Shown: positions 5,596-31,494 of the stretch, piece after piece
How positions within the stretch are numbered: the stretch's first letter is position 1
Layout: each line of letters starts with the position of its first letter
DNA from: Acidobacteriota bacterium
GTDB lineage: Bacteria; Acidobacteriota; Terriglobia; Terriglobales; SCQP01
Direction of reading: 5' to 3'
DNA: 46,002 nucleotides
Assembly: GCA_004299485.1 (NCBI GenBank)
Contig: SCQP01000015.1
Span: 1-46,002 of the forward strand
Translations under genes and position numbers: made by a program
Notes under the pieces: model-generated
The model's database searches: none
Seen by the model: the letters and a program-made list of their open reading frames with translations, nothing else
Told to the model about the DNA's origin: nothing

Positions 5596-7085
5596 AAGCC
5601 GGGCTCGCCGATATGATGGCGTTCTTCTTTTAGCAGCACCGCCCGCCGGATGAGGTCGGTGAGCGCAGCCTCGTCGCCCGCTTCGAGCGCCGGCCGCAAA
5701 TCCCATTCGCGCAGTGAAAACAGGCACGTCCGCAGTTGCCCGTCAGCGGTCACGCGCACGCGGCTGCACTGATTACAGAAAGGCGACGACACCGGCGCGA
5801 TGATGCCGATCTCGCCCGGTGCGCCGTCCGCGAAACGGAAGCGGCGCGCGGTCTCGCTCCAGCGCGGCGCAATGGCTTCGAGCGGAAATACGCGCTCGAT
5901 GCGCTCGCGCAGCTCGGCGATCGGTACCACGCGCTCGCGGCTCCAAAGCTCGCCCTGTTCCAAAGGCATGAATTCGATGAAGCGCAGCGCGATCGCGCGT
6001 TCGCGGGCGAAGGCGGCAAAGTCTTCAATCTCGTCGTCATTCACCCCGCGCACCAGCACCACATTGACCTTCAGCGGCGCTAGGCCCACGTCGGCAGCAG
6101 CCCGGATGGCCGCCAGCACATGCGGCAGCCCACCGGACACCCGCGTAATGCGCGCCGCCTTGGCCGTCTGCAGGCTGTCGAGGCTCACAGTCACCCGGTT
6201 CAGCCCGGCCGCGTGCAGCGCCTCCGCCTTAGGCGCCAGCAGATGGCCGTTGGTCGTGAGCGCAGTTTCGATGCCGCCCATTGCCGACAGAAACTGCACG
6301 AACTCGACCAGTCCCGCCCGCAGCAGCGGCTCGCCGCCCGTCAGTCGGATCTTGCGGATGCCCAGCCCGACAAAGACCTTCGCCAGCCGCTCCAGTTGCG
6401 GCCACGGCAAAGGTTCCGTGGCCGTGTGGCCGGGATCGCCATAGCGGCAGTAAACGCAGCGATAGTTGCAGCTCTCGGTCACCGATAGCCGCAGATCGGT
6501 AATGGCGCGGCCAAAACTGTCATACAGCCCGCCACGCAAATGCTGGTAATCGGCAGGCGTGTTGAGGTTGTCAAACAGCCGCGTGCCGAAGCGGGCAAGC
6601 TCGGCCGGCGCCAGGCATTGCTGCGGCGCTTGCGCCAGAATACCCGCGAGCGACGGCACCGGACCCGATCCCACCGCCGTGAGCCACGGCAGCAGCGCGC
6701 GTGTGTAGACCGCGCACAGCGGTTGATGTTCGGGCCAACTCCAGCCGTCACGGGCTTCGCTCCTCGCCATCAGATAGCGCAGAAACTCCGGCGTGACGTG
6801 CGGCAGATCGCACGCCAGCACCAGCACACGCGGCTGCCAGGCAAGTGCCGCCAGAATTCCGCCCACCGGACCCGAGCCGGTTACTGCGTCATCCAATCGC
6901 ACCGTGCCCGCAACCTCGGGCAGCTCCATGCCCGCAGGCGCAACTACGGCCACGGCCGTGGCTCCAGCCCCGCGCGCCAACGCCACCATGTGCGCCAGCA
7001 GCGGTTGCCCCTGCCAGTCGAGCCAAGGCTTGGCGCGCCCCATGCGCCGGCTGGCGCCCCCGGCCAGAATGGCCACCGGCATCAT
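5556..7085 (-). CDS. mobA-moaA: Fused MobA-MoaA: molybdopterin guanylyltransferase + GTP 3',8-cyclase
   Basis: 509-residue fusion joining the first and last steps of Mo-bis-MGD biosynthesis. Residues 1 to about 185 are MobA: the nucleotide-binding LAGGASRRMGRAKP motif, ACDLPHVTP, and the family's usual terminal NLNTPADY. Residues about 190-509 are MoaA: radical-SAM cysteines C206, C210 and C213 (CNYRCVYC), LTGGEPLLR, and a second Fe-S cluster site CNQC...C near the end. The chain finishes with RIGG, the conserved double-glycine tail MoaA needs for activity, so the 3' end is correct even though it overlaps modC. The start overlaps the moeA stop (ATGA). A second Met directly follows the first and is an equally good start. 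Confidence 0.93.
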   Translation of the reverse strand: MMPVAILAGGASRRMGRAKPWLDWQGQPLLAHMVALARGAGATAVAVVAPAGMELPEVAGTVRLDDAVTGSGPVGGILAALAWQPRVLVLACDLPHVTPEFLRYLMARSEARDGWSWPEHQPLCAVYTRALLPWLTAVGSGPVPSLAGILAQAPQQCLAPAELARFGTRLFDNLNTPADYQHLRGGLYDSFGRAITDLRLSVTESCNYRCVYCRYGDPGHTATEPLPWPQLERLAKVFVGLGIRKIRLTGGEPLLRAGLVEFVQFLSAMGGIETALTTNGHLLAPKAEALHAAGLNRVTVSLDSLQTAKAARITRVSGGLPHVLAAIRAAADVGLAPLKVNVVLVRGVNDDEIEDFAAFARERAIALRFIEFMPLEQGELWSRERVVPIAELRERIERVFPLEAIAPRWSETARRFRFADGAPGEIGIIAPVSSPFCNQCSRVRVTADGQLRTCLFSLREWDLRPALEAGDEAALTDLIRRAVLLKEERHHIGEPGFHKPDRAMVRIGG

Positions 7086-8362
7086 AGCAACACCACTCCT
7101 ACCGTCGCGCCCGAGGGCAGAACCGTCACGCCGGGAGAAATATGCACAAAGGCGTCGGCCGCCGCCGCTGCAGCGAGATCGGCCGAGCCGTGGTAGCGCA
7201 CATCCACCGTTTCTACGCGCAATCGGTTAGCGCGCAGCCGCACCGGCCGGAACGAATCGAGCTGCAGCGGCTTGCCGGCATAATCAAAGCCCATAGCCGC
7301 GGAGACCGTCACCGGCGTGATCGCATCGGCATCCAGGCCGGCGAGCAGTTCGAACGCGGGGCGGACGAGCAGTGCGCAGGAAAGCATCGCGCCCAGCGGA
7401 TTGCCGGGCAGGCCAAAGTAGAGCCGCCCGCCCAGTTCGCCGAACAACACCGGCCGTCCGGGCCGCACCCGCACCGCGTCGAACGCCAGCCGCACGCCGA
7501 TGCTATCGAGCAGCGGCGCCACCAGGTCGGCGGAGCCGACCGACGCCCCGCCCGCAAACACGATCACATCGGCCCCGAGCGTCAGCGCCTCTTGCAGCGC
7601 CGCCTCCAGCGCCGCGGCTTCGTCGCGCACCAGGCGTTCGTACACCACCTCGGCGCCATAGCGCCGGCACTGCGCCTGCAACATGGGACCATTCGAGTTG
7701 CGGATCTGCGCCGCACCCGGCTGCGCCGTTGCCGCGACCAGTTCATCGCCCGAGGCGATGATGGCCACGCGCGGCGGCTGGAACACGACCAGCTCCGTCA
7801 CCCCGGCGCTGGCGGCGGCGGCGATCATCGCCGGCGTCACGCGCCGCCCGGCCGCGGCCACGACCGCGCCTGCCGGGCTGTCGCTGCCCACCTTGGCGAT
7901 GTTGTCGCCTTTATGCTCGCCCGCATTCACCACAATGCGGCCATCGCTGTCGATTTGGGTGTGCTCGATCATGACCACGGTATCGAGCTCCGCAGGTACC
8001 GCTGCGCCGGTCATAATGGCGACGCATCCGCCTGACCCGGCGCGTGGCGCCTCGCCGCTTCCCGCGCGCACTTCCCCCACGCAGCGCAGCGGCGCGCCGA
8101 GGTCGGCCGCGCGCAACGCATAACCATCGCGCATCGCGCGTCGGAATGGCGGCCAGGGGCGGTCGCTCTGCACCGGCTCCGCCAGCACCGGCGCCGCCGG
8201 CAACGGCACTTGCGCGAGCGGCCGCCGCGGCCAGTCGCGCTGCCGCCGCACCGCGGCGGCGGTATCGATCACCCGCTGGCGCGCCGTCCCGAGGCCGCAC
8301 TCCTGCGCTGGCGGATGCTGATGGAACGCGGTTTGCGGCTCTGGGTGAGATAATCGAGTCAT
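7082..8362 (-). CDS. moeA: Molybdopterin molybdotransferase MoeA
   Basis: 426-residue MoeA, which inserts molybdate into adenylylated molybdopterin. Features in order: PPFRRAMRDGYALRA (the RSAMDGYA-like motif of domains 1 and 2), IMTGAAVP, VAIIASGDELV, IVFAGGASVGSADLV (the Mog-like active-site loop), GLPGNPLGAML, then a C-terminal barrel. It leads the short minus-strand operon moeA, mobA-moaA. Its ATG (8360-8362) is separated by one base from the GTG of the divergent moaC gene, so the two promoters must overlap or lie inside the opposite gene. Confidence 0.93.
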   Translation of the reverse strand: MTRLSHPEPQTAFHQHPPAQECGLGTARQRVIDTAAAVRRQRDWPRRPLAQVPLPAAPVLAEPVQSDRPWPPFRRAMRDGYALRAADLGAPLRCVGEVRAGSGEAPRAGSGGCVAIMTGAAVPAELDTVVMIEHTQIDSDGRIVVNAGEHKGDNIAKVGSDSPAGAVVAAAGRRVTPAMIAAAASAGVTELVVFQPPRVAIIASGDELVAATAQPGAAQIRNSNGPMLQAQCRRYGAEVVYERLVRDEAAALEAALQEALTLGADVIVFAGGASVGSADLVAPLLDSIGVRLAFDAVRVRPGRPVLFGELGGRLYFGLPGNPLGAMLSCALLVRPAFELLAGLDADAITPVTVSAAMGFDYAGKPLQLDSFRPVRLRANRLRVETVDVRYHGSADLAAAAAADAFVHISPGVTVLPSGATVGVVLL

Positions 8363-10798: not shown

Positions 10799-11282
10799 TG
10801 GCGCGGGGAAACAGCGCGGTGTCTTCCAGTTCGATGTGAACTTTCATGTCCTCGTCGAAGGCCTTGAGGGCGTCGTAGAGCGCGCGCACCTCTTCCGCCG
10901 CCTCTGCCGGGGCAACAAATCCGCCGGTTTCGTCGCGCATCTGCGCCAAAAGCTTTTCCGCCTCGCCATGCTCCATCACCATCATGCGGATGGGATTGCC
11001 AACGCTGCCGAAGGCGGGCTGCGGCGGCGGCGTATGCTCGCGCTGCGCCACCGCGAACTTGGCGATCAGCGGGAACAGCATCATCTCTTCTTTGGCCAGA
11101 TGCTGTGACAACGCCTGGCACAGCGTCGCAAAGCCAGAGGTCAGTTTCGCTCCGCCGCCGCTCCCGGCGGTGACGAACATGGCCTGCATCCGGACCATTT
11201 CCTTGCGGCAATAGGCATGGTGGGTGCTGACGATGTGGGTCATCAGCTCTGGCAGCGGTGCATTTTTCCAATCGGTTGTCAT
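10767..11282 (-). CDS. Hemerythrin-domain protein, RIC-like but lacking the ScdA N-domain
   Basis: 171-residue four-helix di-iron protein. Ligand motifs expected of a hemerythrin/RIC domain are visible: HIVSTHHAYCRKE, HLAKEEMMLFP, VMEHGEAEKLLAQM and HIELEDTALFPRA. It resembles the C-terminal half of RIC/YtfE proteins but has no DYCC-type N-terminal domain, unlike the second di-iron protein of this island at 23701-24441. The start overlaps the cytochrome b stop (ATGA), so it is made with the nar/bc genes. Likely roles are binding or removing NO, or repairing Fe-S centres damaged during nitrate respiration. The exact reaction is not established by sequence. Confidence 0.83.
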   Translation of the reverse strand: MTTDWKNAPLPELMTHIVSTHHAYCRKEMVRMQAMFVTAGSGGGAKLTSGFATLCQALSQHLAKEEMMLFPLIAKFAVAQREHTPPPQPAFGSVGNPIRMMVMEHGEAEKLLAQMRDETGGFVAPAEAAEEVRALYDALKAFDEDMKVHIELEDTALFPRAIALEQELLGG

Positions 11283-12760
11283 GGTTGATTCCCCGCGGCA
11301 GCAGTAGCAGGCGCCCTCGCCGAGGGTGGCAGTTTGTGGCGCGAAAGCAGGAAAGCCAGTACGCTCTGCAAATCCTGTTGCGAGATATTGCCGTTGTAGG
11401 ACGGCATGTTGGTGGCCCCGCTGAAGATGCGGGTGGTGATCTGCTCGGCAGTCAGCCGGTCGCCGACGTCGCTCAGGTTCGGTCCGCGCACGCCGCCGTA
11501 GCCGTCGATGGTGTGGCAGAACTCGCAGCCCTTGTCGTAAAACACTTTGGCGCCCGCCGCTTCCGGCCCGGTGGCCGTGCCCACCACCGACACCGGCAGC
11601 GGCTTGGCATTAAAGCGCGGCGACCAGGGAGCGATGGCGCCGAGGTGGCTGAAGTAGGCGATGGTAATGACAATGCCGGCGACGATGACAATGGACCAGG
11701 GCCGGTGAATGAGGCTGCGCTCGCCCCGGCTGCCGGCAAAGGGCAGCGCAAACAACAGCCCGAAGAAGATCAGCGGCGCCAGTATGATGACGTAGTTTTC
11801 CGTCCAGCGCGGAATCACCGACAGCAGCGCGTAGTACCAGAGCAAGTACCAATCTGGCCGGGGCGAAGCGCCCATCAGCGTTGGGTCGGGCGCCTGGCCG
11901 ATTTTTTCCGGACCCAGCGTCATTGCCAGCCCAAAAATGATGGCGATGACGATGAAGCCAAAGACGGCGTCGCGCCAGGCGGCGTCGGGGAAGAAGGGCT
12001 CGCCGTCGCGCGCCAGTAACCCCTTGTACCAGACGCGGTAGGTGCGCGGGTCCACCGGCCGGCCAGTCTTGGGCGGCTCGGAAATGCCGTTGTGGACCAC
12101 CAGGTACAGGTGCAGCCCCAGAACCAAAAAGATCAGTACCGGGATGAAAAATACATGTAACGCGAAGAAGCGGCTGAGCGTGGCTCCGCCCGCGGTGTCG
12201 CCGCCCAGCACCAGGTGCCCGAACCAGTTGCCGATGAACGGTGACCGGCCCGCCTGCTCGGCCCCCACCACCGCCGACCAGAAGCCGTTCTGGTCCCAGC
12301 GCAGCAGTTGGCCGGTGAAGGCCATGCCCAGCACCAGGATCAGCAGCACCACCCCCGAGAGCCAGTTCATCTGGCGCGGGTACTTGTACGACGCCATCAG
12401 ATACACGCGGATGGCGTGAATCCCGATCAGCACCACCATCGCCGAGGCGCCCCAGTAATGAATGCCGCGTACGATGTGACCGAACGTCGAGCTGGAAATG
12501 AACAGCAGCGTCTGATAGGCCTGGCCGCTCGAGGCCACGTAAGAACTGGAGAGCGCGATGCCGGTGACGATCTGCACCAGGAAGACGAACAGCGTCGCGC
12601 TGCCCAGCACATACAGCCAGGCGGATTTTTTGGCGCGCGGCACGCGGTGGAACAGCAGCGGGTGCAGCATCGCCGAGGTGCCGGTGAGATCGTCGAACCA
12701 CAGCCAGGCGCGTTTCCAGGCGGGAGGTCGATCGCTCGGTTTGTCGGTCAGCGGGCTCAT
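11279..12760 (-). CDS. Cytochrome b of a Rieske/cytochrome b complex with fused C-terminal cytochrome c domain
   Basis: 493-residue membrane protein. The N-terminal cytochrome b6-like part has four helices whose paired histidines bind two hemes b (HYWGASAMVVLIGIHAIRVY; LHVFFIPVLIFLVLGLHLYLV). The Qo-site motif appears as PDWY (usual PEWY) in SPRPDWYLLWYYALL, followed by subunit-IV-like helices. Residues about 395-475 add a cytochrome c domain with one heme site, CEFCH (412-416), and a distal Met in NMPSY. The fusion would carry electrons from the Rieske protein out of the complex. The ATG at 12760 is chosen because upstream in-frame sequence is Arg-rich and lies inside the Rieske gene; the gap after the Rieske stop is 8 nt. 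Confidence 0.9.
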   Translation of the reverse strand: MSPLTDKPSDRPPAWKRAWLWFDDLTGTSAMLHPLLFHRVPRAKKSAWLYVLGSATLFVFLVQIVTGIALSSSYVASSGQAYQTLLFISSSTFGHIVRGIHYWGASAMVVLIGIHAIRVYLMASYKYPRQMNWLSGVVLLILVLGMAFTGQLLRWDQNGFWSAVVGAEQAGRSPFIGNWFGHLVLGGDTAGGATLSRFFALHVFFIPVLIFLVLGLHLYLVVHNGISEPPKTGRPVDPRTYRVWYKGLLARDGEPFFPDAAWRDAVFGFIVIAIIFGLAMTLGPEKIGQAPDPTLMGASPRPDWYLLWYYALLSVIPRWTENYVIILAPLIFFGLLFALPFAGSRGERSLIHRPWSIVIVAGIVITIAYFSHLGAIAPWSPRFNAKPLPVSVVGTATGPEAAGAKVFYDKGCEFCHTIDGYGGVRGPNLSDVGDRLTAEQITTRIFSGATNMPSYNGNISQQDLQSVLAFLLSRHKLPPSARAPATAAAGNQP

Positions 12761-12768
12761 GGGTTCGG

Positions 12769-13311
12769 CTAGGTGATCGGCAACGGACTGGTTAAAATTT
12801 GCACGCGGCCGTCGGCGACGCGCACGGGATAGCGGCTGAGGGGGCGTGGCGGCGGACCGGAGGCGACGGTGCCGTTGGCGTAGAACACGCCGCCGTGGCA
12901 GGGGCACATGAACAGGTTGGCGTCGGGCAGCCAGCGGATGGGACAGCCGAGGTGCGTGCAGTCCACCGAGAAGGCGATGAACTCGTTCTCTGTTTCGTGG
13001 CGCAGCCAGGCGGCGGTGTTCGCGGTTACGCCCGACCAGGGCAGCGGCGAGGGGTCCTCAAATTTGACCAGGATCGTGCTGCCCTGCGGAAACTGCTCCA
13101 CCCCGCCGACATCGCGCCAGAGCTTGGTGGGCTTGCGCAGGCCCAGTAAAAAGGCCACGCTGGGCACGCCAATCAGCGCCGCGCCCAGCGCCCCCAGCCC
13201 CAGCGACAGCCGCGTCAGAAACTTGCGGCGTGAGGGGCTCAGGCACCCTTCGCAGGGCGCGTCGGGATCGGGCGCCGGCGCCGACGGCTGCGGATTGTCC
13301 AGATCACTCAT
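12769..13311 (-). CDS. Rieske [2Fe-2S] protein
   Basis: 180-residue Rieske subunit of a quinol-cytochrome c oxidoreductase. A twin-arginine signal/anchor (SRRKFLTRLSLGLGALGAAL, about residues 28-50) is followed by the cluster domain: CTHLGC (C118, H120, C123) and CPCHGG (C136, C138, H139), which supply the four ligands and the stabilising disulfide. CEGC near residue 20 in the cytoplasmic tail is unexplained. The start overlaps the narI end by 8 nt, coupling it to the nitrate reductase genes. Confidence 0.93.
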   Translation of the reverse strand: MSDLDNPQPSAPAPDPDAPCEGCLSPSRRKFLTRLSLGLGALGAALIGVPSVAFLLGLRKPTKLWRDVGGVEQFPQGSTILVKFEDPSPLPWSGVTANTAAWLRHETENEFIAFSVDCTHLGCPIRWLPDANLFMCPCHGGVFYANGTVASGPPPRPLSRYPVRVADGRVQILTSPLPIT

Positions 13312-14002
13312 TCTTGCCTCGCGAAAGTTGCTGTTTAGGACCTCGGTACCAAATTACCCGCTGATACGGGCGCCAGAGGTAATGCACCGGCATCTTGATG
13401 AGGTGTACCAGACGGCTGAAGGGAAACAGCAGAACCAGGATGAAGCCCAGCACGAAATGAATCTGGATGAACGCCGGCAAACTGGCGACGGTGGCGGTTT
13501 CCGGATGCAGCCGCGCCAGCGACCAGAACCAGGGCACCGCCGTATGCACGTACCACAGCCCGCCCCAGCGGTTGAACAGCGCCACGCCGATGCCGGTCAG
13601 CACCTGGACCAGTAACAGCGCCAGAATTAGGCCGTCCATGCGCGAGGTCACATAGCGCGCCAGCTTGGCATAGCCGGTGCGGCGGATGATAAGGATGACG
13701 ATGCCCACCAGCGCCATAAACGACAGCGCAATACCGGTGCACTCGATGATCATCCGCCGGATGGGCGCGCCCAGCAGCGCCGTGGTCACGCCCGGGAAAA
13801 TCGCCGCCAGCAGATGCACCAGCAAAATGATACCGATACCGTAATGCCAGGGCACCGAGCCCCAGTACAGCTTCCGGTTCTCCAGCAGTTGCGATGACAG
13901 GCTCGAGTAGGAGTACGGCTGCTTGTAAAACCGGTAGGCGCCCACGCCAAACGCCAGCGCCAGCGCCACGTAAGGCAGCGCGACGTAGAAAAACTCGTTC
14001 AT
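13304..14002 (-). CDS. narI: Respiratory nitrate reductase gamma subunit NarI
   Basis: 232-residue di-heme cytochrome b that oxidises quinol and passes electrons to NarH. It has five membrane helices. Candidate heme ligands are paired histidines in PWHYGIGIILLVHLL and in IQIHFVLGF...SRLVHLIKMPVHYLWRP. The ATG at 14002 overlaps the narJ stop (ATGA) and begins directly at the first helix (NEFFYVALPYV); an upstream in-frame ATG lies deep inside narJ. It is slightly longer than the Escherichia coli protein. Confidence 0.92.
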   Translation of the reverse strand: MNEFFYVALPYVALALAFGVGAYRFYKQPYSYSSLSSQLLENRKLYWGSVPWHYGIGIILLVHLLAAIFPGVTTALLGAPIRRMIIECTGIALSFMALVGIVILIIRRTGYAKLARYVTSRMDGLILALLLVQVLTGIGVALFNRWGGLWYVHTAVPWFWSLARLHPETATVASLPAFIQIHFVLGFILVLLFPFSRLVHLIKMPVHYLWRPYQRVIWYRGPKQQLSRGKNE

Positions 14003-14520
14003 GCGGCCGCCTCGCCCAGGGGGTGGCTGGCCAGCAGCAGGTAGAGCGCCTGCAGCAGCGGCTGATAGATATGATCGGGCGGCACGCGTTGCGTCAGGGT
14101 GCGCAATCCCGGCAGCACGCAATAAGGCGCCAGATCCTGAATCTCCGCGTCCTCGGGCGAGCGCGCCAGCAGCCGCAGTAGCCAGCAGAGATGATCGGGC
14201 AGTTCCGTGCCCACATCCAGACCGGCTTTCTTCGCCGCCGCCGCCAGTTCAATCAGCAGGGCGCTGTGCTTGCCATGGTCTTCGCCAAACAGTTGATGGC
14301 CGAGGTTGAGGGTGCAATCGGGCTGCAAGTCAAAGGTGGCGGCGTAAATTTCTTCAAGCTGCGTCAGCGGCAGCGCCTGCGCCTGGCGTGCGAATTGCCC
14401 GACCAGGTCGCGCATCACCGGCGAGGCGTCAGGCCAGGCGTCAGGCGAGCATGCCGCTAGTCTGGCCGGGGTGGGATAGTCAAGCAGGTCGGCGAATTGC
14501 TCCAGGTTTTCCATGCTCAC
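13999..14520 (-). CDS. narJ: Nitrate reductase assembly chaperone NarJ
   Basis: 173-residue cytoplasmic helical chaperone of the NarJ/DmsD type, needed to load molybdenum cofactor into NarG before membrane attachment. It shows the family pattern YAATFDLQPDCTLNLGHQLFGEDHGKHSALL at about residues 59-90. It is shorter than the E. coli protein (about 236). It overlaps narH and narI by 4 nt on each side, as in a canonical narGHJI operon. Confidence 0.93.
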   Translation of the reverse strand: MSMENLEQFADLLDYPTPARLAACSPDAWPDASPVMRDLVGQFARQAQALPLTQLEEIYAATFDLQPDCTLNLGHQLFGEDHGKHSALLIELAAAAKKAGLDVGTELPDHLCWLLRLLARSPEDAEIQDLAPYCVLPGLRTLTQRVPPDHIYQPLLQALYLLLASHPLGEAAA

Positions 14521-16004
14521 ATGCCCCGCTTCGCGATCTGCACGAAGCCGGCGCCCTTATGCTCCTGGAAGTCCTGGGGATCGTCCAGCATCGCCACCGC
14601 CTGCTCGCGCATCATCGGCGGAATGACGTAACGCTCGTCGTCGTTGGCGATCGAGGTGAGGTGATAGATGCCGTCCACCTCTTCGCGTGAAACGCCGGCC
14701 TGCTGCCGCGCCACCGCGGCGCGCGTTTCGGTCACGTCGCCCACCGACTCGGCCCGCAGCGTCATGCGCACGGCGATCAGCTTGCGATAGATCTCCGCCA
14801 CCTTCTCCTCGTCGCCGGCGCTGAACAGGCTGGCCAGATACTTCAGCGGCAGCCGCGCCTTTTCGAGCGACGAGAACATGTCGCCGTTCATCTCGAAGCT
14901 GCCGTTGGGCACCGTCGCCAGCACCGGCAGCAGCGGTGGAATGTAGAACAGCATGGGCAGCGTGCGCCATTCGGGGTGATAGGGCAGCGCAATGTTCCAC
15001 TGCTTGATGTACTTGTAGGTCGGCGAGCGCTGCGCCGCATCGATCACAGCATCGGTGACACCGTTCGCCTTGGCGGCGGCGATGATCCCGGGGTCGTGTG
15101 GATCGAGAATCAGCGCCTTGTGCGCCTCCACCAGCTCATGGTCCGGGTGGCTGGCGGCATCGTGAATGCCGTCCGCGTCGTAGAGCACCACCCCCAGGTA
15201 GCGGATGCGGCCCGGGCAGGTGTGGAAGCAGGCCGGGGCAATACCGTCCTCCAGGCGCGGGTAGCAGAGAATGCACTTCTCCGCCTTGCCCGTCTCGTAG
15301 TTGAAATACATCTTCTTGTACGGGCAGCCGCTGATGCACATGCGCCAGCCCTGGCATTTCTCCTGGCTGACCAGCACGATGCCATCCTCGCCGCGCTTGT
15401 AAATGGCGCCCGTCGGGCAGGCGGCCACGCAACTGGGATTCAGGCAGTGATTGCAGATGCGCGGCAGGTAGAAGAACACCAGTTGGCGCAGATGGAAAAA
15501 TTCGTGCTGTTCTTCCGGCGTCAGCTTCTTCAGGTTGGGGTCATTGGCGGCGTAAATATCCGAGCCGCCCAGGTCATCATCCCAATTCGGCCCCGCTTCA
15601 ATGTCCATGTCGCGGCCGGTAAGCATCGAGATGGGCCGCGCCACCGGCTGCTCGGTCGATTGCGGCGCGTCGAACAGGTCGCTGTAGCGATAGGTCCAGG
15701 GCTCGTAGTAATCGTCCAGCTCCGGCAGCCGGGGGTTGTAGGCCAGATTCGCCAGCTCCGTCGGCCGCGCCGCCAGCTTGAGCTGCAGCTTGCCGTTGCG
15801 CACCTCCCAGCCGCCGCGATACAGCTCCTGGTCCTCATAGAGCGTGGGGTAGCCGGTGCCTGGCTTGGTCTCGACGTTGTTCCACCACATGTACTCCGTG
15901 CCCGGCCGGTCGGTCCATAAATTCTTACAGGCCAGACTGCACGTGTGGCACCCGATGCATTTATCCAGGTGAAACACCATCGACATTTGCGCTCTGACAT
16001 TCAT
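14517..16004 (-). CDS. narH: Respiratory nitrate reductase beta subunit NarH
   Basis: 495-residue electron-transfer subunit carrying three [4Fe-4S] and one [3Fe-4S] cluster. The four Cys groups are [11 protein letters not shown] (C16-C26), [36 protein letters not shown] (a Trp replaces one Cys, as in the [3Fe-4S] site of E. coli NarH), and [28 protein letters not shown]. It starts inside the narG stop overlap (4 nt) and overlaps narJ by 4 nt. It lies on the cytoplasmic side with NarG. Confidence 0.96.
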
Positions 16005-19000
16005 GACTTCACCGGGTCCATGGGGGGTTTGCCCTTGAGCTTGCGGACCAGCACATAGCTGTCGCGGTCACTCGCCGCCGGGCCGTAATCGTTGAAGCGG
16101 TAGGTATGCTGGCCGTAGCCGCCTACCATGAGCACCGGTTTCAGCCGCATGCGCGTGAGGCTGTTGGTGCCGCCGCCGCGATGTTTGCGCGTCGGCGACA
16201 AGGGAAAGCCTACAGTCCTCTCGGGCGCGTGATAGAAGATGCACAGGCCGCGCGGCAGCCGCGCGCTCACCACCGCCCGCGTAACGATGGCGCCATTGTC
16301 GTTGTAGGCTTCGATCCAGTCGTTGTCGAAGACGCCAATCGAGGCCGCATCCTCATGATTCAGCCAGAACGGCTCGATGCCGCGCGACAGCGTCAACATG
16401 CGCAGGTTTTCCGAGTAGGTGCTGTGGATGTGCCACTTGCCGTGGGGCGTGATATAGGCCAGCGTCAGCGCCGGTTCATTTTCCGGAGCCCGGCTGCTGG
16501 CCAGATTGAGGCTGTGTTCGAGGCTGATGGGCGGCTTGAACGTCGGTAGGGCTTCGCCAAAGGCGCGATAGCCTTCGTGGTCGAGATAATGGCTCTGCCG
16601 GCCGGTGAGCGTACGCCAGGGCACCAGGCGCTCCACGTTCTGCGCGAAGCCGGTATAAGCGCGGCCATCATTGGCGATGCCGCTCCAGCAAGGGCTGGTC
16701 AGCAGCCGGCAGGGCTGCTGTACTAAATCCTGGAACTGATAGCGGGTGGCGCGGCCGGGCTCGCCCAGATCCGCCAGCTTTTGGCCGGTCTCTTTCTCGC
16801 GCGCCAGAAAACCGCGATAGGCCACTTCGCCATTGGTCTCGGGCGCAAAGTACAGGACCATATTGGCCGCCTCCACCGGGTCCACCAGCGAGACATAGTC
16901 TTTGCCATCCCAGCTATATTTCGGCGCCGAGCGCGCGAACTCGTCGTACAGGTCGGCCACGGGCATGTGAATGCCGCGGTCCTCGACGCCGTCGCGCCGC
17001 AAGTTGGGACCGAGCGCGCAGAAATGATGCGCCAGGTTGGGGTAGTCGCGCTCCACCAGCTTGAAGCGCGGCATCGTCTTGCCGGGAATCGGCTCGCACT
17101 CGTCCGTCAGCCAGTCGCGCACCTCCGGCTGGGCGATCTCATCGGGCGTGTCGTGCAGCAGCGGCTCGGCCACAAGGTCCTCGACCGGCTCGGGGAAATG
17201 CGCTGGTGCCAGCGCGCTCACCTTCTCCGCCAGGCGGCGGAAAATCTCCCAGTCCGTCTTCGACTCCCAGCAGGGCGGCACCGCCGCGCCCAGTGGATGA
17301 ATGAAGGAGTGCAAATCGGTAGTGTTGAGATCGTTTTTCTCGTACCAGCTTGCCGCGGGCAGCACGATATCGGAGTAGAGCGCCGACGTGTCCATGCGGA
17401 AATTCAGGTCCACGACCAGATCCATCTTCCCCGTGGGCGCGATGTCTTTCCAGACGATGTCGCGCACCGTGCCTTCGGCGCGCTCCTCGGCGATGGCGCT
17501 GTCGCCCGTGCCCAGATAATGCCGCAGGAAGTACTCGTGCCCTTTGGCGCTGGTGTGAATCGCGTTCGCGCGCCAGATGAGCCACACCCGCGGCCAGTTC
17601 ACCGCCGAATCGGGCTCGCGCACGGCAAAGCGCAGCCGGCCCTGATGCAGCTCGCGCACGATCCAGTCCTGAATCTGCGCTGGCGTCTGAGCGCCTTCGG
17701 CGCGCGCCTGCAACACCAGCTCCAGCGGGTTTTTCGAGAACTGCGGGAAAAACGGCAGCCAGCCCGAACGCACCGCCCGCGCCTGCAAGTCCATGGTATG
17801 GCTGGCGGCAAACGGACCCTCCTGCGGCCCCGGTTCAGGAAACCCCTGCTCGTAGCGCCACTGATCGCTATGGACGTAATGAAACGACGGCCCGTTCTGC
17901 AGCCGCGGCGGCTTGACCCAGTCGAGCGCCATCGCCAGCGCCACCCAGGAGGCCATGGGCGCCAGCTTTTCCTGCCCGGTGTAATGGTTCAGCCCGCCGC
18001 CGTTCACCCCCACGCAGCCGCACAGCACCAGCGCGGTAATGCTGGCGCGATAGTGAACATTGGCGTGATACCAGTGGTTCGTGCCGGAGCCGATGATGAC
18101 GGTGCATTTGCCGTGGGTCTTTTCCGCGGTGACCGCAAACTCGCGCGCGAACTGCACGACTGTCTCCCGCCCGATGCCGGTGTACTGCTCCTGCCAGGCG
18201 GGCGTGTAGGGATTGTCGGCATTGTTATAGTCGGTGACCGCCGCTTCCCCGTCCAGGCCGCGCGCCACGCCGTGCTGCGCCATCAGCAGGTCGAGCACCG
18301 TGGTAACCGGAACTTCGCCCCTGGCGGTCTGCACGTAGCGCACCGGCACGGCGCGCTGCATGCGCCGTTCGCTGCCGTGCTCCACAAAGCTGACGGCCAG
18401 CGTTTTTGCCTGTGGCGCGAGCAGCGTCAGCTCGGGCGCGAGCGCTGCGCCGTCCTCGCCGTCTTTCATCTCCAGATTCCAGCGGCCCTTCTGCTGCTGC
18501 CAGCGATGCCCGACGGCGCCCTGCGGACTGCGCGGTTGGTTGCTGGTCTTATCCCACACCAGCAGCTTCCAGTCGCCGTTCTCCACGCCGGCGTAGCGCG
18601 CCAGGCGGCCCGCACGCAAAAACTTGCCCGGCCGGTAGCCGTCGAGCCCATCCGGCTCGAGCTCGACCAGAAACGGGGCGTCGGAAAAGCGCGACTGGTA
18701 ATCCTGAAAATAATCGACCTGCCGCTGGTGGTAGAACTCGGTGAGGATGACGTGGCTTACCGCCATCCAGAAAGCGGCATCCATGCCCGCATGCACCGGC
18801 ACCCACCAGTCGGCGAACTTCGACACCTGGCTGAAATCCGGCGACAGCACCACCAGCTTGGCGCCGTGGCCGCGCGCCTCCGCCACGAAGTGCACGTCGG
18901 GCGTGCGCGTCATGGACAAATTGCTGCCCACCACCACGATATATTTGCTGTTGAACCAATCGGCGCTTTCGGCCACGTCCGTCTTCTCGCCCCAGACCTC

Positions 19001-19636
19001 GGGCGAGGCGGGCGGAAAATCGGCGTACAGATCGTAAAAGCTGAGCATCACCCCGCCCAGCAGTTGCAGAAAGCGCGAACCCGCGGCGTAGCTGATCATC
19101 GACATCGCCGGAATCGGCGAAAAGCCAATGATGCGGTCCGGACCATATTCCCGGATGGTGTACAGCAGCGAAGCCGCGATGATCTCCAGGCATTCATCCC
19201 ACGTCCCGCGCCGGAAGCCGCCGCGCCCGCGCGCCTGCTGGATGGCGCTGCGCGCGCCCTCATCCCGCATCAGTGCCGCCCAGGCGTCGACCGGGTCGGC
19301 ATGCGCCGCCCGCACCGCGCGCCAGTGGTCGAGCAGCACGCCGCGCACGTAGGGATACTTCACCCGGATAGGACTGTAGATGTACCAGGAAAAACTGATG
19401 CCGCGCTGGCAGCCGCGCGGCTCATACCCCGGCAGCGATGGATCCAGCTTGGGATAATCGAGCGCCTGCGTCTCCCACGTCACCATGCCGTTTTTGACGA
19501 ACACATCCCAGGAGCAGCCGCCGGTGCAGTTGACGCCGTGGGTGCTGCGCACCACCTTGTCGTGCTGCCAGCGGTTGCGGTAGAACTCTTCCCAGCTCCG
19601 GAGCTTGGGGTTCACGAGGTCTTGTATCCAGCTCAT
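16001..19636 (-). CDS. narG: Respiratory nitrate reductase alpha subunit NarG
   Basis: 1211-residue catalytic subunit reducing nitrate to nitrite at Mo-bis-MGD. The FS0 [4Fe-4S] ligands are H33, C37, C41 and C76 ([14 protein letters not shown]). The aspartate expected to ligate molybdenum is D206 in [13 protein letters not shown], aligning with Asp222 of E. coli NarG. There is no twin-arginine signal, so it is predicted to face the cytoplasm, unlike exported archaeal-type or Nxr forms. Length is close to the usual ~1250. Overlaps of 4 nt with the upstream cytochrome c gene and with narH show one tightly coupled operon. Nitrite oxidoreductase was considered, but narJ/narI and the absence of an export signal favour nitrate reductase. 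Confidence 0.96.
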
Positions 19637-26739: not shown

Positions 26740-27255
26740 ATGCGCTTTCGCTTTGATCCCGTAAAGAGCACGACTCTGCGGGCAAATCCGAAGCGCGGCA
26801 TTGGCTTTGAGGAAGTACAGGTGCTGTTCGACGGCGACCACATTTTCGACCGTCGTTGTGATGCTCCCGAACAATGGCGCGCTATCGGGTGGGTAGCGGG
26901 CAAGTTGTATAGCGTGATCTACGAGATTCGCACGGACAGCGCTGGCGAGTTCTATCACTTGGTCACTTGTGGCCCGCAACCAAAGAGGAAAGGAGACAGT
27001 ATGCCGAAAGCATCTAAGCCAATCGATGCGGAAAGAATTGCAGAAATGGCTGATCGTGGAGAGGATATTTCCGCTCACTTCACAAACAACTTTACCGTCG
27101 TCCGGCGCGTGAATGTTGATTTCACCGCTCCTATGTTGCGTGAGCTGGACCGGGAAGCTGCGATGCTGAACGTCAGCCGCCAAGCCGTAATCAAGACTCT
27201 GCTCCGCGACGCTCTGGATCGCCGCCACCTGGCTGAACAGGACCGCCACCATTAA
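26740..27255 (+). CDS. brnT: BrnT toxin reading frame fused to BrnA by a frameshift
   Basis: A single 171-residue frame. Residues 1 to about 76 are a BrnT-type RelE-like RNase toxin (FRFDPVKSTTLRANPKRGIGFEEVQVLFDG ... YEIRTDSAGEFYHLVT). Just after this, the frame that would complete BrnT is the neighbouring one: from 26967 it reads LWPATKEERRQYAESI and stops at 27015-27017, exactly the usual BrnT ending overlapping the antitoxin start. So one base is missing near 26965, and the present frame instead runs GPQPKRKGDS straight into BrnA (from Met at 27001). The toxin has therefore lost its last helix and either is fused to its own antitoxin or is inactive. A sequencing or assembly error is the main alternative. 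The DNA is visibly AT-richer than its neighbours, suggesting horizontal acquisition. Confidence 0.75.
   Translation: MRFRFDPVKSTTLRANPKRGIGFEEVQVLFDGDHIFDRRCDAPEQWRAIGWVAGKLYSVIYEIRTDSAGEFYHLVTCGPQPKRKGDSMPKASKPIDAERIAEMADRGEDISAHFTNNFTVVRRVNVDFTAPMLRELDREAAMLNVSRQAVIKTLLRDALDRRHLAEQDRHH
27001..27255 (+). CDS. brnA: BrnA antitoxin (internal start)
   Basis: 84 residues. The N-terminal part (DAERIAEMADRGEDISAHF) is typical of BrnA; the C-terminal half is a ribbon-helix-helix DNA-binding fold (RRVNVDFTAPMLRELDREAAMLNVSRQAVIKTLLRDAL). AAAGGAG lies 6-12 nt before the ATG, so free antitoxin can still be made although the ATG is now in frame with the upstream toxin. It would neutralise BrnT and repress the operon. 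The convergent transporter gene ends 11 nt after its stop. Confidence 0.88.
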   Translation: MPKASKPIDAERIAEMADRGEDISAHFTNNFTVVRRVNVDFTAPMLRELDREAAMLNVSRQAVIKTLLRDALDRRHLAEQDRHH

Positions 27256-27266
27256 AAGTTCGGCGC

Positions 27267-27923
27267 TCATAGGCATTGCCGGTTCTTCTCAACGGCTGAC
27301 CGTGCCATCCCCGCTCCGCTACCGCCCGCACCCTGCGCCTGAGCCTCCTGCGCTGCGCGGCGCCACTCTCTCACGCCCAGAATCGCCAACGCCACCAGCC
27401 CTGCATACAGCACCGCGGTCGCCTGCAGACCTTTGTAGACATATTCACCGACGTAGATCACATCCACGGCAATCCAGAGCCACCAGTTGGCGATGTGCTT
27501 GCGCGCCGCCCACCACGTCGCCACCAGGCTATAGCTGGCGAGCGTTGCATCGAGCCAGGGCAGTGCCGCACCCACGCGCACCATCACTTGCGCCAGCACC
27601 ACCGCGCCCGCGGCGCCGGCCAGCAGTCCGCCGATCCTTCCGCGCTTGCCGAGCGGCACAACCGCAATTTCGCCGTCGTCACGGGCGCCGCGCCACCAGT
27701 GCCACCAGCCGTAGAGGGTGAAGACGACGAACAGCGCCTGCAGCAGCGCGTCAGAAAAAAGCCGGGCGCGGTAGAAGACCTCCAGATAAATGACGTCGGC
27801 AACCAGGACCACGGGCCAGCACAGCAAGCGGCGCTGGGTGGTGAGCCAGATGCCCAGCACGGTCGAGATCACGCCGGCCAGCTCCAGCCCATGAGTGCGC
27901 AAGTAGTCGAGGAGTGGCGTCAT
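27267..27923 (-). CDS. pnuT: PnuC/PnuT-family vitamin transporter, probable thiamine uptake
   Basis: 218-residue membrane protein of the nicotinamide riboside transporter fold: about seven helices, with YGWWHWWRGARDDGE in the middle and NWWLWIAVDVIYVGEYVYKGLQATAVLY in the last third. PnuC imports nicotinamide riboside, whereas PnuT homologues under thiamine control import thiamine. Here the operon starts with a TPP riboswitch, so thiamine (or a precursor) is the likely cargo, trapped afterwards by the kinase encoded just upstream. The ATG at 27923 overlaps the kinase stop (TAATG); an earlier ATG lies 24 nt upstream. Confidence 0.82.
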   Translation of the reverse strand: MTPLLDYLRTHGLELAGVISTVLGIWLTTQRRLLCWPVVLVADVIYLEVFYRARLFSDALLQALFVVFTLYGWWHWWRGARDDGEIAVVPLGKRGRIGGLLAGAAGAVVLAQVMVRVGAALPWLDATLASYSLVATWWAARKHIANWWLWIAVDVIYVGEYVYKGLQATAVLYAGLVALAILGVREWRRAAQEAQAQGAGGSGAGMARSAVEKNRQCL

Positions 27924-29044
27924 TAGTGGCTCCGTAAGTAGTCGCATAGCCGCCCGCCGGCCGCGCCCGCAAACCAGCGCGCGTGGCCCAGCAGCCAGCC
28001 TTCGTAGGCGAGGCGTGCTCGGCTTTCGCCGGGCAGGCGGAGAAAATAATCCGCCTCCGACAGCGCGACTTCGACATGGCAAAGCGCCATCATGGGCGCC
28101 AGCGCGGCCCTCTCCGCGCGCGTCAGAGGCCGGACCGACGCGTAGCCGCTCAGCAGCGCCTGGAGGTGATCGAAATGCACCGCAGGTTCGCGGGGCAACG
28201 AAAGCCACTCGACGATATTGCGCTCGATGGCGTGGGCCAGGCCATGTACCGCGTAGGTCTGGTCCGCCAGCCCGAAATCAATGATGGTGACGGGGTGCGC
28301 CTGGGCGCCGGCGCCGCTCCAGAACAGGTTTGAGGCGTGTAGGTCGTTGTGCGTCCACAGCGGTGTCAGGTGCGGCAGCAGAGGCTGCAGCTCGGCGTAG
28401 AACGGTTCGAGCAGCTTCAACGCCTCGGCAGCGCAACGCCGCACACCGGCATGATGCGCAAGCAAGGGGCGGGCGTCGAGATAAGCTTCCAGACCCGCTG
28501 CCGGATCGCCGCCGGCAAAAATGCTGCAGCTCGCGACCAGCGGCCGCGGCTTGCGCGGCGGCGCTGCAAATCCCGCCGCGGCCAGATGCAGCCGCGCCAG
28601 CGCTGCACCCGCCGCGTGAGCATGGTCCGCACTATTAAACGGCGTCCAGGAGAACGCGTCCCGGTACAGGTCCATGCCTGCAGCGCATTCCTGCACTTCG
28701 TAGGTCCACGGTCCGGCTTCCACCGCGGTTTCGCCATCGGCGTTGGCCAGCACGCGCGGCACCGGAGCGCCGTGTTCGTGCAGATAGGCGAGGAAGCGAT
28801 GCTCCTCGCCCAGTCCCTCGCAATCGCGGATGCTGCGCGCATGCCGCTTCACAAACACAGAACCATGCGTGCAGCGCACCACCGCCGCCGCCGAGAACGG
28901 CCGCGGGCTGGCGAAGGTAATTGCATCCGGCTCGCCAGCATCCGGATAGGCGGCCAGCAGCGGCCGCAGTTCCGCAATCGTGAGCGCAGGCCAGTCCGGC
29001 GCGACCAGCGATCCCTCCATTCCGTGGGCTAAAACGGGAGTCAT
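27923..29044 (-). CDS. APH/choline-kinase-fold phosphotransferase, candidate thiamine kinase
   Basis: 373 residues of the aminoglycoside-phosphotransferase (APH) superfamily. The N-lobe Lys is in GSVFVKRHAR, the catalytic loop is WTHNDLHASNLFWS (HxDxxxxN), and the metal-binding IIDFGLAD is the DFG equivalent. ThiK, the thiamine kinase of enterobacteria, belongs to the same superfamily. This gene sits between a TonB receptor and a PnuT transporter under a TPP riboswitch, so phosphorylation of imported thiamine to thiamine monophosphate is the natural hypothesis. Homoserine- or choline-type substrates cannot be excluded by sequence alone. It starts 2 nt after the receptor's stop codon. Confidence 0.8.
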   Translation of the reverse strand: MTPVLAHGMEGSLVAPDWPALTIAELRPLLAAYPDAGEPDAITFASPRPFSAAAVVRCTHGSVFVKRHARSIRDCEGLGEEHRFLAYLHEHGAPVPRVLANADGETAVEAGPWTYEVQECAAGMDLYRDAFSWTPFNSADHAHAAGAALARLHLAAAGFAAPPRKPRPLVASCSIFAGGDPAAGLEAYLDARPLLAHHAGVRRCAAEALKLLEPFYAELQPLLPHLTPLWTHNDLHASNLFWSGAGAQAHPVTIIDFGLADQTYAVHGLAHAIERNIVEWLSLPREPAVHFDHLQALLSGYASVRPLTRAERAALAPMMALCHVEVALSEADYFLRLPGESRARLAYEGWLLGHARWFAGAAGGRLCDYLRSH

Positions 29045-29046
29045 GG

Positions 29047-31338
29047 CTAAAAGTTGTAGTGCACCGAGGCTTTAATCCAGCGCGGCGCGCCCAGCCAGAG
29101 GAACGAATCTCCGTAATTCGTGCCGGTATCCGCCCAATATTTCTTGTTGGCGAGGTTTGACACCCAGACGCGAAACGTCGCGCGGCTTTCACCGCGCGGC
29201 GTATAGCTCACGCCGAGGTTGAAGAGCGCATAGCCCGGGACGGTCACCGCATCGTCGCGCAGCGCCGCTTTGGAACTCGTATAGCTCCAGCCCGGCAGCA
29301 CTTCCAGGCCTGCAAGCAGGCGCGACAGGCTCACCTCGGCAAAGACGGTCGTGCGAAAGCGGGGCACGTTGATTACCTGCCGGTCATTAAAGGCGGCGGT
29401 GCCGGTATCGTGCGCAACCGCGCTCGTCACCGCCGTGGACGACAGCAGCCGCAGCCAGTCCGCCGCCCGGCCTTGCGCGTTTAGCTCCAGGCCGTTGTGC
29501 GTTTCCCTTCCCTGCTGCTCGAAGTAAAGATTGCCCGCAGCCGCGGCCGCGGCTTTGGGATAAAAGAACGGCGCCTGCATATGGAATATATCGGCGCTCA
29601 GCAAGAGTCGCGATGCCGGCTGATACTTGGCGCCGATCTCGAATTGGCGCGTGAAATAGGGAGCCAGGAACTGGCTGGCGTTGGCGGCCCACCAGGGCGC
29701 CTGCGGACCGAGCGAAAGCGTAGCCGCATAGTTCGTGTAAAACATGAGGTTTTGGGCCGGACTCCAGGTAACTGCGTACTGAGGCAGCCAGACGGGTCGG
29801 TCGGTGAAAACCGGCGCGCAGGGGTTGGGCACGGGCGCCGTCGCCGCATCGAGATTGGCGGCGCTGGCGCAGGATGCCCAGGCGGAGAAGTTGTGGTCGC
29901 GGAGTGCATCGTAGCGTCCGCCGGCGATAACCTGCACGCCCCCGGGAAGCTGGACCCGGTCCTGCATGACCAGGGACGATTGCCGGCTGTCCTGCCACAA
30001 CCGCTCCGGACCGGCGCTCTGCACCGGCGTCTCGATGGGATAGGGCACGATGGGCTGGTAGATATTCTCCGAGCCGAGATAGGTGTAGACCGGCCCGTTC
30101 TGCACCACGCCGTCCGGCGAAACCGGACTGCTGCGGGAGGCAAAACCAGGCATGCGCACCGTGCGCACGAACAGCTCGCCGCCCGCGGTCACAAATTGCG
30201 TGATCGGACCGGTGCGCACGATGCCCGACGCCATGCCTTCGGTTTCGGCATCGACCCGACGCTCGTCGGGGTTGCGGTAATCGTAAACGTCGTAGCTTCC
30301 GTCGGGAGCAAAAAAGAACGCCGGCGACTGCGCGCACGCCGCCTCGTAGCCGCAACCGTAGGCGTAGATGACGTTGTCCTGAATCAGCGACTGGCTCAGA
30401 CTGGCGGCGGCCGATGCCGTCCAGTTGGGAGCCAGCGCCAGATTCAGGCGGAGGCTGGTATTGAAGGTGTCGTAGGTATTCGGCGGCGCCCACGTCTGCC
30501 TGCCCAGCATGGTTGCGGGCGAGAGGCGATGCAGATCGGGCAAAGTGGTGCCGCCCAGCAACTGGTAGCCGCTGCCGTCGGCTTCGGTTTTGCGCTGCGC
30601 CTCAAAATCGCCTTCCAGCGTGGCGCGCGGCGACAGCCGCCAGTCCAGCGCGAGCGCGCCCATGCGGCGCCAGCCGCCGGTGCCCTGCATATAGGTCTCG
30701 AGCCGCTCTTCGGCCAGGTTCACCCGCAGCCCGAACTGCTGCCGCCGGCCAAACAGGTGCCCAAAGTCCCCGGCCAGGTAGGCAGTGCCGAAGCCGTCGG
30801 TAGCCAGATCGACGGCGCCAATGTCGGCTGGCCGCTTGGTGACGTAATCGATCGTGCCTGCGCCTGCGGCCACGCCGTTCGCCACGCCTGCCAGGCCATG
30901 CAGAAAATCCACCTGCTGTTTGTTCTCCAGCGGCACATCCTGCTCGCCGGCGATGGTCATGCCATTGACGGCGAGGCCGGTGGCCAGATCGATCGGGTAA
31001 CCGCGAATCGTGTACACGCCGTAGTAGCCCACCGGCACGTAGTCATCGTTCACCGAAGCGTCGTTGGCGGCCAGATCCGAGAGCAGCCGCGCCTGCTGCC
31101 CGCTCAACACCGCGCGCGTCACCGCGGTGGCTGACAGCGGCGCCTTCTCGAGCGGCTGCGCGCCCAGTACGCCCGACGTGACCTTCGCGGGCAGGTAGTT
31201 GCCGTCGGCACGCGCCTTGACCGTAATCGAAATCGTGATCTTTTTGGCTTTGGTGCTGGTTGCGGTTTGCGCGCGGGCAGCAACCGCGAAACCGAGCAGC
31301 GCCGCCAAAACTGCGGCTTGCGAGCAGCGCGACATCAT
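29047..31338 (-). CDS. TonB-dependent outer-membrane receptor, probable thiamine uptake
   Basis: 763-residue outer-membrane receptor. A signal peptide (about residues 1-23, ending AVAARA), a plug domain at about 55-190 (VGYYGVYTIRGYPIDLATGLAVNGM ... GAGTIDYVTKRP) and a 22-strand barrel ending with the expected aromatic tail KASVHYNF. Barrel style resembles siderophore receptors, but control by a TPP riboswitch and co-transcription with a kinase and PnuT point to thiamine or a thiamine-related compound as ligand. GGAGGAG lies 8 nt before the ATG. No TonB/ExbBD genes are in the window. Confidence 0.92.
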   Translation of the reverse strand: MMSRCSQAAVLAALLGFAVAARAQTATSTKAKKITISITVKARADGNYLPAKVTSGVLGAQPLEKAPLSATAVTRAVLSGQQARLLSDLAANDASVNDDYVPVGYYGVYTIRGYPIDLATGLAVNGMTIAGEQDVPLENKQQVDFLHGLAGVANGVAAGAGTIDYVTKRPADIGAVDLATDGFGTAYLAGDFGHLFGRRQQFGLRVNLAEERLETYMQGTGGWRRMGALALDWRLSPRATLEGDFEAQRKTEADGSGYQLLGGTTLPDLHRLSPATMLGRQTWAPPNTYDTFNTSLRLNLALAPNWTASAAASLSQSLIQDNVIYAYGCGYEAACAQSPAFFFAPDGSYDVYDYRNPDERRVDAETEGMASGIVRTGPITQFVTAGGELFVRTVRMPGFASRSSPVSPDGVVQNGPVYTYLGSENIYQPIVPYPIETPVQSAGPERLWQDSRQSSLVMQDRVQLPGGVQVIAGGRYDALRDHNFSAWASCASAANLDAATAPVPNPCAPVFTDRPVWLPQYAVTWSPAQNLMFYTNYAATLSLGPQAPWWAANASQFLAPYFTRQFEIGAKYQPASRLLLSADIFHMQAPFFYPKAAAAAAGNLYFEQQGRETHNGLELNAQGRAADWLRLLSSTAVTSAVAHDTGTAAFNDRQVINVPRFRTTVFAEVSLSRLLAGLEVLPGWSYTSSKAALRDDAVTVPGYALFNLGVSYTPRGESRATFRVWVSNLANKKYWADTGTNYGDSFLWLGAPRWIKASVHYNF

Positions 31339-31399
31339 GGCCTGTCTCCTCCAGAAACCAGGAGCCTGGGCTCGGCAAGCTGAAAATGGCCTCTCGGTT

Positions 31400-31485
31400 A
31401 GCGAACGCTCCCCACGCCGGTATTATCCGGATCGGGTTCGAGGGTATCATCTCAGCCCCACGGCTCGGTGGAGCACCCCTGTTTC
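31400..31485 (-). ncRNA. TPP riboswitch (THI element)
   Basis: Read on the minus strand, the conserved core blocks appear in order: AGGGGTGCTC (P1/P2 start), GGGGCTGAGATGATACCC (P2-P3, the CTGAGA thi-box), GAACCCGATCCGG (P4 start) and ATAATACCGGCGTGGGGAGCG (P4/P5-P1 close). These match the thiamine-pyrophosphate aptamer. It lies 62 nt upstream of the TonB receptor ATG, whose GGAGGAG ribosome-binding site could be masked by an alternative fold. No T-tract terminator was seen, so translational control is more likely than transcription termination. Confidence 0.93.
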
Positions 31486-31494
31486 CTGTCTTCC

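Follow-up and report, generated by a model that had tools for sequence, protein, structure and literature searches.

A TPP-riboswitch operon of Acidobacteriota joins a TonB receptor and a PnuC/PnuT-family channel with a predicted thiamine kinase of the APH fold

The operon described here most likely encodes a thiamine capture-and-trap pathway repressed by thiamine pyrophosphate (TPP), for which we infer the substrates of the receptor, channel, and kinase, the product of the kinase, and the mode of switching. It lies in an acidobacterial DNA stretch of 46,002 nucleotides, the whole of which is called the window below. Its kinase, so far labelled a phosphotransferase, is very probably an unrecognized thiamine kinase as judged from its family and context, and it is found mainly in relatives that lack a key step of vitamin B1 synthesis. 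At low TPP, the riboswitch would keep the start of the receptor accessible, and the operon would be translated. Thiamine would cross the outer membrane through the TonB receptor and equilibrate over the inner membrane through the PnuT channel; phosphorylation by the APH-fold kinase would yield thiamine monophosphate (TMP), which could not leave the cell and which ThiL would turn into TPP. The general design of riboswitch, OMthi, PnuT, and kinase is known; what appears to be new is the class of kinase and where it occurs.

Organization of the operon

On the minus strand, the TPP riboswitch is followed by the TonB receptor, the kinase, and the channel in a tightly packed order. The aptamer (31392 to 31490, minus) matches RF00059 at full length (model positions 1 to 105) with 60.1 bits, above the curated gathering threshold of 54.3 (E 2e-9), and reaches 77.4 bits with a covariance model built from 18 acidobacterial TPP aptamers, its own included. 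It is the sole TPP riboswitch detected in the 3.30-Mb genome, and none was found near thiC of that genome. The OMthi-like TonB-dependent outer membrane receptor (29047 to 31338, minus; 763 residues) is recognized by PF00593 (9e-29), PF07715 (1.8e-6), and TIGR01783 (233 bits, cut-off 223.5), and a gap of 2 nucleotides separates its stop from the start of the APH-fold small-molecule kinase (27923 to 29044, minus; 373 residues; PF01636, the APH family, 4e-22), the predicted thiamine kinase. The stop of the kinase in turn overlaps the start of the PnuC/PnuT-family vitamin channel (27267 to 27923, minus; PF04973, 2.3e-45), a predicted thiamine facilitator, in the sequence TAATG at 27923; because of this overlap, the channel is most likely the protein of 218 residues from ATG 27923 and not the 313-residue GTG frame. 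All three frames are intact in the window. The sequence-only reading of this DNA had named the same four elements in the same order, which the family matches bear out, and it had placed the operon correctly except for the start of the channel.

The putative expression platform (31341 to 31364, minus) consists of an CUCCUGGUUUC arm opposite the Shine-Dalgarno stretch GGAGGAG (31352 to 31346), ahead of the receptor ATG. Its position matches that of a strong Shine-Dalgarno-sequestering hairpin in about 25 acidobacterial leaders, which is of the type CUCCUUUGUUUC...GAAACAAGGGGA, lies between the aptamer and the receptor ATG, and has the Shine-Dalgarno sequence as its 3' arm. In the alignment of this hairpin, 86% of the cells are paired versus 56 to 66% in slid controls; column shuffles were not clearly beaten, and the changes are mostly one-sided G-U, so the hairpin of the relatives appears as a conserved pairing, short of proof by covariation. 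The window leader keeps the 5' arm able to face GGAGGAG, forms a weaker hairpin than its relatives, and folds no better than shuffled sequence. From these leaders, TPP-stabilized sequestration of the ribosome site is the likely mechanism of switching.

Recurrence of the operon

Among 297 sampled genomes of the phylum, the kinase occurs in three (G000, G007, and G171), all of the same order, and in each of them the same operon is directly preceded by a TPP riboswitch. When 84,980 species genomes were scanned with the alignment of these three kinase sequences, 72 loci emerged: 37 acidobacterial (two of them G007 and G171 again), 21 proteobacterial (Pseudomonas, Xanthomonas, Rhodanobacter, Pseudoxanthomonas, Collimonas, Burkholderia, and sphingomonads), 1 from Paenibacillus, and 13 from Actinomycetota. 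PnuT adjoins the kinase at all 37 acidobacterial loci, and the receptor is present wherever a contig end does not cut. With the 18-aptamer covariance model, the order riboswitch-receptor-kinase-channel was found at 30/30 acidobacterial loci with intact upstream DNA, the seven loci without a riboswitch match being cut upstream or joined to unrelated sequence. At locus L075, the DNA upstream of the receptor resembles such an unrelated joined sequence. A PnuC-family gene lies near the kinase at 57 of the 58 Gram-negative loci, and the remaining one, which leaves 20/21 for the proteobacteria, is cut by a contig end. With the same three genes and the riboswitch in dozens of genomes, the arrangement goes far beyond what chance would give. 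As a test of its proposal, the sequence-only reading had asked in advance whether the kinase keeps company with TPP riboswitches and thiamine genes in other genomes, and it does.

The order riboswitch-receptor-kinase-channel is shared by Acidobacteria and sphingomonads; Rhodanobacter and its relatives have kinase-riboswitch-receptor-channel, Pseudomonas and Xanthomonas have kinase-receptor-channel without a riboswitch, and Burkholderiales combine the kinase, receptor, and channel in other orders. That one set of partners has been reshuffled repeatedly speaks for a common function more than for a neighborhood kept by descent. Distant homologues (33% identity) form a kinase-TonB-PnuC trio in another gene order on Acinetobacter plasmids. 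On a plasmid of Acinetobacter lwoffii (L163, 5992 to 10016), the trio is annotated as phosphotransferase, siderophore receptor, and nicotinamide riboside transporter.

Other homologues stand apart from this arrangement. Those of Nocardia and Streptacidiphilus (L093, L098, L100 to L109, and L111; 39 to 50% identity) are stand-alone genes with no receptor or channel neighbors, and that of Paenibacillus radicis (L076, 7916 to 12793) lies within an operon for an ABC transporter that includes two binding proteins of the NMT1/THI5 type, in a genome with thiamine pyrophosphokinase (TPK) and without ThiC. In two genomes of the window's order that have no kinase (G023 and G273; loci L114 and L115), the riboswitch does not stand ahead of this operon; the one in G023 (C28:49182-49309) is about 200 nucleotides upstream of a ThiC match (C28:49509-50762).

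Features of the kinase

The window kinase keeps K66, E81, HNDLHASN (232 to 239), and DFG (256 to 258), and K66, E81, D234, N239, D256, and G258 are invariant among 71 family sequences. An AlphaFold model based on 48 family members is of high confidence (pLDDT 94.7); its nearest solved fold is the homoserine kinase 2ppq (Z 26.2, rmsd 4.0, 305 aligned residues), followed by N-acetylhexosamine 1-kinase and choline kinases. The APH fold and the HxDxxxxN and DFG-type motifs place the protein in the APH/choline-kinase-like superfamily, but it shares only 22% identity with the ThrB-type homoserine kinase and 13% with N-acetylhexosamine 1-kinase. Identity as a ThrB homoserine kinase was rejected, the scores being 52 versus 271 and 32 versus 256 bits at the NCBIfam equivalog cut-offs.

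Like E. coli ThiK (YcfN), the window kinase carries APH-type catalytic motifs, and the same reaction, thiamine + ATP to TMP, is proposed for it. Unlike ThiK, it is about 100 residues longer, and it belongs to a TonB/PnuT operon, whereas E. coli thiK lies between lpoB and nagZ. Orthology of the two was rejected, since TIGR02721 and PRK10271 find E. coli ThiK and not the window kinase, and BLASTP gave no significant full-length similarity between them, with the catalytic loop alone aligning. In the open-access literature we found no assignment for this kinase family; the search covered open papers, which makes the novelty provisional, and an earlier prediction of this kinase may exist.

In the kinase tree, the window protein falls inside an acidobacterial clade (100/99), near or among sequences of another family, and the other genomes sampled from the same genus and family lack the kinase, which together suggest transfer. 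The base composition of the operon gave no signal of foreign origin (GC 65.9% versus 65.1%).

Thiamine pathway genes in kinase-bearing genomes

TPK (PF04263) is absent from 49 of the 50 kinase-bearing genomes; Paenibacillus alone has a match above the cut-off, and three Nocardia have partial matches below it. In the window genome, too, no TPK was found. ThiL is above the cut-off in 45/50, and proteins of the TMP-TENI family (ThiE/TenI) occur in all 50 (over the cut-off in 48). ThiC is missing in most acidobacterial carriers and also in Rhodanobacter and Pseudoxanthomonas. Within the window's order, 200 genomes were covered, of which 32 have the kinase and 167 have ThiC; ThiC is lacking in 28/32 carriers versus 5/168 non-carriers (Fisher p 6e-25, relatedness ignored), which leaves four ThiC-positive carriers (G000, G439, G443, and G485) and 163 non-carriers with ThiC. 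Three genera (g2, g175, and g186) each hold carriers as well as ThiC-positive non-carriers. The loss of ThiC means that most carriers in the order depend on external thiamine or 4-amino-5-hydroxymethyl-2-methylpyrimidine (HMP), and without TPK, external thiamine reaches TPP solely through a thiamine kinase and ThiL. The APH-fold kinase of the operon is the obvious candidate for that kinase step. Genome content thus answers the co-occurrence test in the same sense, most carriers having ThiL but no TPK and, in Acidobacteria, no ThiC either. The complete uptake route that had been proposed from the letters is supported by the co-occurrence of the kinase, riboswitch, and channel, but its last step needs ThiL, which in the window genome is encoded elsewhere, outside the operon.

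Counted against capture-and-trap are the ThiE/TenI-family genes kept by the carriers, with which a role in HMP salvage would be compatible, the TIGR01528 call on the channel (below), the lone Nocardia and Streptacidiphilus homologues, the riboswitch-less clusters of Pseudomonas and Xanthomonas, and, in the window genome, the presence of ThiC together with glycine at kinase residue 268 (28241 to 28243, minus; HDLA motif). That residue is aspartate in 70 of the 71 family sequences, the window being the only one with glycine, and this change in a genome that retains ThiC may reflect relaxed selection on the window copy or an assembly error. There is accordingly some chance, though a minor one, that the window's own kinase is impaired by D268G and that its operon is decaying in a thiamine prototroph, which would be compatible with thiamine phosphorylation by the family at large; the three intact frames and the preserved catalytic residues speak against it, and a single base change could equally be a sequencing or assembly error.

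It is improbable that the kinase acts instead on a thiamine precursor, HMP or hydroxyethylthiazole, and that the transporters carry that precursor. The acidobacterial carriers, mostly ThiC-less and yet keeping TMP-TENI family genes, do show the pattern of HMP auxotrophs, and the NMT1/THI5 family, among whose ABC transporter genes the Paenibacillus kinase sits, serves HMP as well as thiamine. However, ThiD is the usual source of HMP kinase activity, and since the carriers lack TPK, they would gain nothing from importing thiamine unless they had a thiamine kinase. Characterized PnuT proteins, moreover, carry thiamine (PMC5613172).

Still less probable is a thiamine pyrophosphokinase that would make TPP straight from thiamine. 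The kinase does hold the operon role that tnr3 has in Bacteroidetes (PMC5613172), but ThiL is retained by the carriers. APH-fold enzymes, furthermore, transfer a single gamma-phosphate. The least probable alternative is a nicotinamide riboside (NAD) salvage operon merely placed after a TPP riboswitch, as implied by the public annotation of the trio (phosphotransferase, siderophore receptor, and nicotinamide riboside transporter, the last being also the label in the plasmid records) and by the channel score above the cut-off of the NCBIfam equivalog TIGR01528 for nicotinamide riboside transporters; we reject it as the main reading because of the TPP riboswitch, which precedes the operon at all intact acidobacterial loci and also in Sphingomonadales, and the association with ThiC loss stands against it as well. 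No match of the window channel to any PnuT-specific model was reported, and the TPP-riboswitch context favors its identity as the thiamine-specific PnuT.

Comparison with known uptake systems and a second kinase

Thiamine uptake in Bacteroides thetaiotaomicron requires OMthi as well as PnuT, and the kinase gene paired with pnuT there is tnr3 (PMC5613172). The present operon resembles this OMthi-pnuT-tnr3 operon of Bacteroidetes in bringing together a TPP riboswitch, a TonB receptor, a PnuC-family channel, and a kinase for trapping, but differs in that its kinase is of the APH fold and presumably makes TMP for ThiL, that TPK is absent, and that the carriers are Acidobacteriota and Proteobacteria. 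With nicotinamide riboside uptake by PnuC and NadR, it shares the channel family and the logic of a facilitator plus a trapping kinase, whereas the TPP riboswitch control and the kinase fold are different. According to the title of Jaehme et al. 2018, PnuT works by facilitated diffusion.

In other acidobacterial families, the gene directly after the unit of TPP riboswitch, receptor, and PnuT encodes a NadR-type P-loop kinase (PF13521) that is non-homologous to the APH kinase. This holds for 8/8 loci with a detected PnuT (L116, L127, L130, L134, L135, L144, L150, and L153), which makes a kinase after the channel the rule in acidobacterial TPP-TonB-PnuT units and suggests the NadR-type enzyme as a second candidate thiamine kinase family. 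The APH-fold kinase, the NadR-type kinase, and tnr3 are thus three unrelated kinases in one operon role, a pattern expected if that role is the trapping of facilitator-borne thiamine. On balance, we lean toward the broader view that the operons for thiamine uptake in Acidobacteriota place behind PnuT, interchangeably, one of two unrelated and so far unassigned thiamine kinases (APH-fold or NadR-type P-loop), with a third (TPK) in Bacteroidetes, and that the APH family would be a second, non-ThiK class, through which alone thiamine would gain access to TPP synthesis in a large ThiC-less group of soil bacteria.

A thiamine kinase of this kind would assign to a widespread gene family, at present called phosphotransferase, a function that can be tested, correct the labels "siderophore receptor" and "nicotinamide riboside transporter" of its neighbors, and supply the missing thiamine-to-TMP step for many genomes without TPK and ThiC. 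Among Acidobacteriaceae, which are dominant in soil and peat but poorly cultured, it may also serve as a genomic marker for dependence on thiamine or HMP.

Other genes of the window

Next to the operon, a frame of 171 residues (26740 to 27255, plus) combines a weak BrnT-toxin-like N terminus (below the cut-off) with a ribbon-helix-helix C terminus and is possibly a fused toxin-antitoxin pair. Nitrate-reductase-type genes occupy 11279 to 19636 (minus), encoding a molybdopterin protein of 1211 residues, a nitrate reductase beta-type protein of 495 residues, and a cytochrome b protein whose C terminus carries a cytochrome c domain, and a MoeA gene is located at 7082 to 8362. Between 31992 and 36971 (plus), a 168-residue frame with several CxxCH heme motifs, a 1005-residue molybdopterin/4Fe-4S protein, and an NrfD-type membrane protein resemble an alternative complex III cluster.
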